Under the pieces are notes generated by a model. It ran no database searches and was not told the origin of the DNA. It worked only from the letters and a program-made list of their open reading frames with translations. Positions 26,651 to 27,643 of a stretch of 39,679 nucleotides of DNA are shown here, piece after piece. The DNA comes from a virus. Every line of letters begins with the position of its first letter. Within the stretch, counting starts at the first letter, position 1. Location: positions 1-39,679 of the IMG/VR virus record IMGVR_UViG_3300046477_000127, one strand, 5' to 3'. Position numbers and translations under genes: made by a program.

Positions 26651-26725
26651 GTTTGGCACTCCAATAGGCGAAAACAAGGAATGGCATTGCTGCCGGTTCT
26701 TTGTCCCTGCCCTACGGAGACTTGC

Positions 26726-26872
26726 TTAACGGGCCATGCGCACGATTGACGGTTCGGCTAGACCTAGGTCCCTGATATCGGACGGTTGAAAGACGCACAT
26801 GGTGCCGGTGGACACCTTGAGTCCGGGGAGACCCTTCGCACGAACGCGCCCGATATCAGGTACTGCAACCAT
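26726..26872 (-). CDS. Small ORF upstream of the coat gene, 48 aa
   Basis: The frame MVAVPDIGRVRAKGLPGLKV continues to FQPSDIRDLGLAEPSIVRMAR and a TAA. The composition is ordinary protein. It lies between the coat gene and the oppositely oriented membrane-gene island. No clear ribosome site precedes the ATG; instead a palindrome copy (26881-26897) ends 9 bases before it. It could be a small head protein or a leader peptide. Confidence 0.5.
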   Translation of the reverse strand: MVAVPDIGRVRAKGLPGLKVSTGTMCVFQPSDIRDLGLAEPSIVRMAR

Positions 26873-26880
26873 ACACTAAG

Positions 26881-26897
26881 ATTGAGGAAATCTCAAT
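26881..26897. promoter_or_regulatory. Operator-like palindrome copy between coat block and membrane-gene island
   Basis: ATTGAGGAAATCTCAAT, both 6-base arms intact, lies between the leftward 48-aa ORF and the rightward promoter at 26910. It could act on either direction. Confidence 0.7.
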
Positions 26898-26909: not shown

Positions 26910-26938
26910 TTGCGCATCTCTTATGAATGTTGTACATT
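26910..26938 (+). promoter_or_regulatory. Promoter of the rightward island, overlapped by an operator copy
   Basis: TTGCGC (26910-26915), a 17-base spacer and TACATT (26933-26938) precede the first membrane gene by 24 bases. The -10 lies inside the motif copy TTGTACATTTCTCAA (26930-26944). Confidence 0.5.
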
Positions 26939-26962: not shown

Positions 26963-27124
26963 ATGACGCTTATCCTGAAATTCCTCGGCGCCTGCGTGCT
27001 GCTCTATTGGGCGGTATGCCTTGGTCGCTTGCTCATCAACATTGCCGCCATCGTTCTTGTGTTTATCGCAGGCGTCATTGGATTCGTGCTTACGGCTATC
27101 TTCTCCCGCAAGGATGCAAAATGA
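26963..27124 (+). CDS. Small two-span membrane protein, 53 aa (reversed island in late block)
   Basis: A good CGGAGA ribosome site precedes ATG 26963. The protein is almost all hydrophobic: ILKFLGACVLLYWAV and LLINIAAIVLVFIAGVIGFV are predicted spans, ending with a basic SRKDAK. It is transcribed against the surrounding late genes, has its own promoter and ends in an ATGA overlap with the next gene. This is the profile of a moron, perhaps a superinfection-exclusion or membrane-modifying protein; the function is not shown by sequence. Confidence 0.7.
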   Translation: MTLILKFLGACVLLYWAVCLGRLLINIAAIVLVFIAGVIGFVLTAIFSRKDAK

Positions 27125-27336
27125 AAACCCTCGCTATGTGGCTGTACGGAATCGGCGCCCTTGGATCGGTCTGCCTCATCGGTCCCGCTGGCTTGCTCTA
27201 CGTGTTCCCGTTCGCGGCTTTTATCATCACGGTATTTCTCGCACTCTTCGCCTTGTTTGACGTGCTGTTTCGCGGCGTGAAGGTCGTTCGTGAGCAGCAG
27301 AAGGAGCAGCGCGAGCACAGGAGTTGGATTCTGTAG
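27121..27336 (+). CDS. Small membrane protein, 71 aa, second gene of reversed island
   Basis: Start in an ATGA overlap with the preceding gene. Two hydrophobic segments (LYGIGALGSVCLIGPAGLLY, FPFAAFIITVFLALFALFDV) are followed by a charged cytoplasmic tail (REQQKEQREHRSWIL). The pair with 26963-27124 forms a two-gene operon that runs into a structured RNA region and a terminator. Function unknown. Confidence 0.7.
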   Translation: MKTLAMWLYGIGALGSVCLIGPAGLLYVFPFAAFIITVFLALFALFDVLFRGVKVVREQQKEQREHRSWIL

Positions 27337-27340
27337 TATC

Positions 27341-27640
27341 CTGTCACTGGGTCGAGACTACGCGGCCGAAAAAATACGCCTGTACACTTAACCGTGTCTT
27401 TTCCCTCTGAGCCGGACAGAGGCAGGCGAAATAGTCCGGCACTCTCACGCATGAAGACTGGCTTGGGCTGCGCACTGGCAGGACCAGTTAGGCGGGCGCC
27501 ATGCAGACGACAGGGGACGTGCACGAAACCTGTCTCAGTCTTCAGCCGTGAGAGTGAAGGACGAAGACCTACCTCGGTGGAATCGGCCAACGGGCGGCAC
27601 CACACTCTCAAACACTAAGGCCCCTTTCGGGGCCTTTTCT
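27341..27640 (+). ncRNA. Candidate structured RNA with pseudoknot and long stem
   Basis: A 300-base non-coding stretch follows the membrane genes and ends in an intrinsic terminator. Visible pairings: hairpin CCTCTG (27404-27409) with CAGAGG (27417-27422); its loop GCCGGA (27411-27416) pairs with TCCGGC (27435-27440), an H-type pseudoknot with loops of 1, 0 and 12. Then a long stem of 10 bp (27440-27449 with 27547-27556), a 2x2 internal loop and 9 bp (27452-27460 with 27536-27544). Inside it are hairpins ACTGG/CCAGT (27474-27488) and GACAGG/CCTGTC (27509-27534). TGAGAGTG (27549-27556) can instead pair with CACTCTCA (27603-27610). I cannot match it to a known RNA family. Confidence 0.65.
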
Positions 27641-27643
27641 TTT
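27617..27643 (+). terminator. Intrinsic terminator ending the reversed island
   Basis: AAGGCCCC (27617-27624), loop TTTC, GGGGCCTT (27629-27636) and then TTCTTTT. The T tract is on the rightward side only, so it ends the membrane-gene/RNA transcript and is a poor terminator for the leftward late transcript. Confidence 0.85.

Follow-up and report, generated by a model that had tools for sequence, protein, structure and literature searches.

A P22-type phage has a non-coding stretch at 27341-27640, in the gap that separates its scaffold and coat genes. What kind of RNA does it encode, and to what does this RNA belong? The window, by which we mean the whole stretch of DNA that was analysed (39,679 nucleotides), is a 39.7 kb viral contig with the P22-type terminase, portal, scaffold and coat genes on the minus strand. 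The gap between scaffold and coat genes measures about 1.07 kb compared to 145-250 bp in most relatives, and is laid out rightward as two small hydrophobic-protein genes, the RNA and a terminator. ORF1 (26963-27124, +; codon score 0.33) encodes a hydrophobic protein of 53 aa and is 98% identical in L003; ORF2 (27121-27336, +) encodes a membrane-like protein of 71 aa that is 96% identical in L003 and has counterparts with 46-48% identity in the same slot of L005 and L018/L020. Neither protein has a Pfam match. The putative promoter of the cassette, TTGCGC-17-TACATT (26910-26938, +), is weak by consensus and was unreported by the promoter scan; judged by eye, its position is kept in L003 and L020, and the version in L005 (TTGACA-17-TAGAAT) is stronger. 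The RNA begins about 10 bases past the ORF2 stop codon. Downstream a rightward rho-independent terminator with a U-rich tail was called at 27617-27641 (+), and it is retained in L003, L005, L020 and L010 with stem or loop altered. The insert thus has the attributes of a moron: it is absent from most relatives, has its own orientation and terminator as well as a putative promoter, and varies in content. The RNA stretch closes this two-gene cassette within the late genes.

The closest relative, L003, has a coat protein that is 97% identical. It carries the cassette with the same two genes and terminator plus an additional first gene, and has about 90 unrelated bases at the position of the RNA. 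Since the closest relative does without it, the RNA is dispensable to the phage. L005 has an ORF at this position, and L020 has no counterpart of the RNA and an insertion sequence that splits the rightward terminator of its cassette.

The original prediction described a structured, apparently untranslated RNA, and both fold statistics and codon usage support this. All the pairings it named are present, including the inner hairpins and the terminator. The long interrupted stem (27440-27460 with 27536-27556) is far beyond chance, with a best ungapped inverted-repeat score of 20 compared to at most 14 in 200 dinucleotide shuffles. The stretch as a whole folds with -126.5 kcal/mol (z -4.0), and none of 100 shuffles reached an equally low energy. 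As the fold of the reverse strand is better still (z -5.65), the folding energy does not tell the strand. The strand is given by the terminator, which is called on the plus strand, is kept in relatives and bears out the predicted orientation antisense to the late genes. The 74-codon ORF scored -0.37 in codon usage, where the 5th percentile of in-frame sequence is 0.11 and the 95th percentile of out-of-frame sequence is -0.225; coding readings of 27394-27618 and of the reverse strand were both ruled out on this basis.

The original prediction had been unable to name a known class. We compared the RNA with Rfam 15 and found no matching family at the gathering threshold; at relaxed thresholds the best matches owe their scores mainly to the terminator. 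The RNA does not fit the tRNA and tmRNA models of ARAGORN. Type III toxin-antitoxin RNAs are marked by pseudoknots repeated in tandem ahead of a toxin gene, and the region has no tandem repeats. A blastn search of the whole RNA against phages and plasmids returned terminator or chance matches only, and the exact-stem pattern had no match in viral contigs.

The feature that was originally taken to define this RNA fares less well. The letters of the possible H-type pseudoknot (27404-27440, +) are where they were said to be, with CCTCTG (27404-27409) facing CAGAGG (27417-27422) and the loop GCCGGA facing TCCGGC (27435-27440). By itself the pseudoknot is only weakly significant: a 6+6 bp H-type pseudoknot is present in 3 of 1000 shuffles, under looser rules 5 of 300 reach the score, and the whole window holds two such motifs with about 0.6 expected. 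Two other pairings compete with it, a 7-bp hairpin (GCCGGAC/GUCCGGC) and GUCC/GGAC, which closes the long stem, and it was not found in the homologues described below. Its pattern has no match in viral contigs and one in genome contigs, a chance match inside a long ORF of Actinomadura. A frameshift pseudoknot was ruled out, as no coding frame runs through it. The original prediction was right about an unusual structured RNA and wrong about its defining feature. In the same slot before the terminator, L003 has a different H-type pseudoknot (L003:3740-3860) that pairs CGTCC/GGACG with TGCTCAA/TTGAGCA; none of 300 shuffles was as good.

The long stem, by contrast with the pseudoknot, recurs in distant homologues and covaries there. 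The original prediction had named a lack of compensatory changes in relatives as a refuting outcome, and for this stem that outcome did not occur. It forms a conserved hairpin domain (27438-27560, +) with an internal loop CA/GC (CACGCATG ... CAGCCGTG), and homologues with compensatory changes were found in L136, L250, L255, Burkholderia phage CSP3 and the related phage G012. A single-sequence covariance model built on the window hairpin (27430-27566) and run on 0.69 Mb matched L136 with E 1.5e-6 and L250 with E 0.06. With a descriptor that kept the loop letters open we obtained three matches in 2.15 Mb of sequence other than the window, each of them containing CACGCATG; six shuffled copies gave no match. 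In four aligned hairpins 97.4% of the cells pair and 8 of the 19 pairs are changed on both sides, and pairing falls to 35-46% if the partners are slid against each other. The internal loop is the same throughout the alignments (CACG-CA-UG against CA-GC-CGUG, with CA-GU-CGUG in L250), and the inner stem changes in a compensatory manner from AAGACUG/CAGUCUU to GCGAUCG/CGAUCGC. A model of all four sequences matched CSP3 (E 1.4e-9) and G012 (E 7.6e-8); because of their long loops it misses the plus strand of the window and L250, whose homology rests on the single-sequence model, the open-letter descriptor and the covariation of the four sequences. The surroundings of the hairpin fall into two kinds. 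In L136, CSP3 and G012 it is followed directly on its 3' side by a second structured domain, which we call the kissing-loop RNA. L136 has a tRNA just upstream of the hairpin, and the near-identical sequence of G012 indicates one there as well. L250 and L255 are of a reduced kind like the window and both have a GACTACGCGGCC hairpin in addition, the motif by which these two, and not L136, CSP3 and G012, were retrieved.

The outer part of the stem has a second partner, which the original prediction overlooked together with the two-gene cassette upstream. The 5' arm CACTCTCA (27440-27447, +) pairs with the middle arm TGAGAGTG (27549-27556, +), and an exact repeat of the 5' arm forms a 3' arm, CACTCTCA, at 27603-27610 (+), so the middle arm can pair with either. 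The 3' arm alone has a p of about 0.036 in shuffles, and the arrangement is repeated in homologues. In a comparison of seven phages the middle arm keeps both of its pairings, with 94.6% and 89.3% of cells pairing and changes on both sides, counts that are inflated as the arm sets were picked by eye for complementarity. The comparison of the window with G012 is the most telling one: the three arms are all changed at their second position (CAC/GTG/CAC compared to CGC/GCG/CGC). In several members of the wider group described below (L136, L143, L144, CSP3 and L148), and likewise in the window, the 5' hairpin has a 3' arm that overlaps with the 5' arm of the outer helix; in others, for example L141 and L152, the best upstream helix ends before that arm. 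The alternative fold reaches -63.9 kcal/mol compared to -71.5 kcal/mol for the hairpin fold. It is about 7.6 kcal/mol less stable, and an unaided switch is therefore not expected.

The wider family became visible through L131, a related prophage fragment that we reached via 90 loci with the coat and scaffold proteins and 44 contigs with the coat leader motif. The scaffold-coat slot of L131 encodes an RNA of about 290 nt that is non-coding, points rightward and has a terminator. This is a kissing-loop RNA in the slot and orientation of the window RNA, with TTCACGCATG in its 5' arm. About 120 phage records match its centre (L131:2966-3079), for the most part at places where no gene is annotated. 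Copies were assigned in L131, L141, L142, L143, L144, L145 (P1), L146, L147 (PY54), L148, L150, L152 and L153, and named phages of the group are P1, PY54, PAJU2, HC6, Schitoviridae phage ZC08, CSP3, AP1 and P7869 (L144), among others. Many copies are found near tRNA genes or in late leaders. The RNA lies next to tRNA genes in P1 and HC6, within a tRNA array in ZC08, and ahead of the lysis genes and behind a late-region gene in PY54, PAJU2 and a Klebsiella prophage. In an alignment of 13 copies the outer helix covaries, with 5 of 6 pairs changed on both sides, and there is likewise support for the hairpins GCGCA-GGCUGA-UGCGC and GCCGG-AGAUCAGCA-CCGGC, whose complementary loops GCUGA/UCAGC are invariant and 98.5-100% paired. 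No entry of Rfam 15 matches this RNA either.

The window RNA shares two characters with this group. It has the CACGCATG/CAGCCGTG-type hairpin that stands 5' of the kissing domain in L136, G012 and CSP3, and its middle arm is able to pair with the 5' or the 3' arm. Kissing hairpins with loops GCUGA and UCAGC were found neither in the window RNA nor elsewhere in the window, and for this reason we file the RNA as a divergent relative and not as a full member. Judged by its sequence, the window hairpin corresponds to the 5' domain of the kissing-loop RNAs, here without the kissing hairpins. Further likenesses are the 5' hairpin that shares its 3' arm with the outer helix, a non-coding length in the range of a few hundred nucleotides and, in L131, the same slot; the differences are that GCGCAGGCUGAUGCGC / GCCGGAGAUCAGCACCGGC kissing hairpins are not recognisable in the window and that its second domain is only 46 nt long.

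On balance we lean towards the following reading. The stretch would be the non-coding 3' part of the moron transcript, and its core (27438-27610) a divergent relative of the phage RNA group that works as a two-state RNA. We infer a rightward transcript, inserted between the P22-type scaffold and coat genes, that would run from the two small genes through the RNA to the terminator. The core would consist of the 5' hairpin with the fixed CA/GC internal loop and a bistable middle arm. The hairpin with the 5' arm would form first during transcription and be the more stable state; moving the middle arm to the 3' arm would require a partner, which may be a protein, a tRNA, the ribosome or a further RNA, and this second pairing would close a second domain. 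Fixed loops and competing arms would then predict two folds that share one arm.

The main rival, which we consider unlikely, is a plain and stable 3' UTR of the moron mRNA that protects it from 3' exonucleases and stops transcription antisense to the scaffold gene, the additional pairings having no role. The start of the RNA directly behind ORF2, the terminator kept in relatives at its end and the free exchange of the contents of the slot (L003 has different bases there, L005 an ORF and L020 nothing) agree with it, whereas other phages have the fixed internal loop and the third arm at sites where ORF1 and ORF2 are absent. We regard as improbable a stand-alone regulatory sRNA that is cut from the cassette transcript and pairs in trans with host or late phage mRNAs. 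Lambdoid prophages do encode sRNAs at moron sites (PMC4104026), and the site, the U-rich tail of the terminator and the rightward orientation would fit; however, those sRNAs are 51-60 nt long and differ in anatomy, and in the window RNA we found neither a conserved single-stranded seed nor similarity beyond the hairpins. A DNA element, either a MITE or a recombination site that exchanges moron contents through inverted repeats acting in DNA, is very improbable: the slot is a hot spot with contents that differ per phage, including the insertion sequence of L020 and, seen by eye, HNH-homing-endonuclease-like ORFs on the late strand in the scaffold-coat gaps of L008, L009, L057 and L101, but the G-U pairs and the conserved internal loop argue against it, as do the borders with L003, at which neither terminal repeats nor a target duplication can be clearly made out, and the homologues, whose sites are unrelated and not repeated and in two cases adjoin tRNA genes.

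If the two-state reading is right, a structured RNA common to P1, PY54, ZC08 and relatives of a P22-type phage is unnamed in Rfam 15 despite decades of study, and its siting beside tRNA genes and late operons would point to a role in lytic gene expression. A bolder version, possible and in our judgement doubtful, is that the window RNA and the kissing-loop RNAs form one unrecognised phage RNA class. It would occur in temperate and lytic phages alike, near tRNA genes, downstream of Q or ahead of terminase, would switch between two folds that exclude each other, and would have a conserved target in the host (the ribosome, a tRNA or RNA polymerase) on which it acts in lytic growth. Among described systems, GOLLD and ROOL are likewise non-coding RNAs encoded by phages; they have kissing loops and are often located close to tRNA islands (PMC12286853). 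They are much larger, many GOLLD RNAs exceeding 800 nt, whereas the RNA studied here has no Rfam match and gives no evidence of multimers. The P22-type ant moron with its sar antisense RNA (PMC2629481) is similar as an independently transcribed insert in the late operon, but the window insert lies at the scaffold-coat site and has other genes and no immI genes.

Upstream of the core lies a further 5' hairpin, GGUCGAG-ACUA-CGCGGCC with one A-G mismatch (27347-27369, +), which agrees in 21 of 23 positions with non-coding sequence of Pseudomonas phage P7869 (L144). The match was noticed post hoc and has a blastn E of about 0.45 in 2.2 Mb, or about 0.004 as scaled by us for the 13 loci where it was seen. 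Kinship with a recurrent motif is suggested by sequence likeness: the hairpin GGUUGCG-ACUA-CGCGGCC recurs outside genes, often just before a terminator, at L144:381-398 and L250:1031-1048, in L150, L161, L167, L183, L255 and Pseudomonas phage D3, and in others. There are 117 viral contig stretches with GGTYGNGACTACGCGGCC; most of these are non-coding, and in many cases a terminator follows at a short distance. About 40 P. aeruginosa phage records contain GGTTGCGACTACGCGGCC, for the most part where no gene is annotated. The put RNA of HK022, like the window RNA a phage-encoded RNA with stem-loops (a leader with two that acts in cis; PMC9378689), was ruled out as the counterpart of the 5' hairpin; the motif is absent from HK022 25000-40700, and antitermination has no support here. 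In the non-coding stretches of four P. aeruginosa phages (L166, L176, L188, L244) we noticed by eye a hammerhead-like core, CTGATGAG...CGAAAC, downstream of a GACTACGCGGCC hairpin.

A conserved pseudoknotted RNA does exist in this region, 640 bases leftward on the opposite strand, where the original prediction had overlooked it. It is the leader of the coat gene (26698-26767, -), identified by alignment and model search. In 34 aligned phages four helices form two pseudoknots, one with GGY/RCC inside the loop of hairpin P1 and one that combines GCCC/GGGC with GUCUC/GRGAC. Of all cells 94.1% pair, compared to 27-41% in the slid control, and 12 of 17 pairs are changed on both sides. The model matched once in each of 57 sources out of 58, and in the phages this match sits at the coat leader; Pseudomonas phage PAE2 is the only source without one; carriers are the window, L003, L005-L012, L014-L092 and others. 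The exact leader motif was found in 44 contig stretches of IMG/VR, 41 of them 50-74 bases before a coat gene and the remaining three at a contig end beside a scaffold gene. Rfam 15 contains no match to the leader. On the simplest reading it is probably autoregulatory for the most abundant virion protein, or protects or stabilises its mRNA.

Two further inverted repeats lie in this part of the locus. A second large inverted repeat (26768-26863) lies just upstream of the coat leader and shows, by eye and uncounted, compensatory changes in L005 and L018/L020. The palindrome ATTGAGnAAATnTCAAT (26880-26896), between the coat leader and the cassette promoter, is kept in L003, L005 and L020; it is operator-like and adjoins a minus-strand promoter match at 26896-26868.
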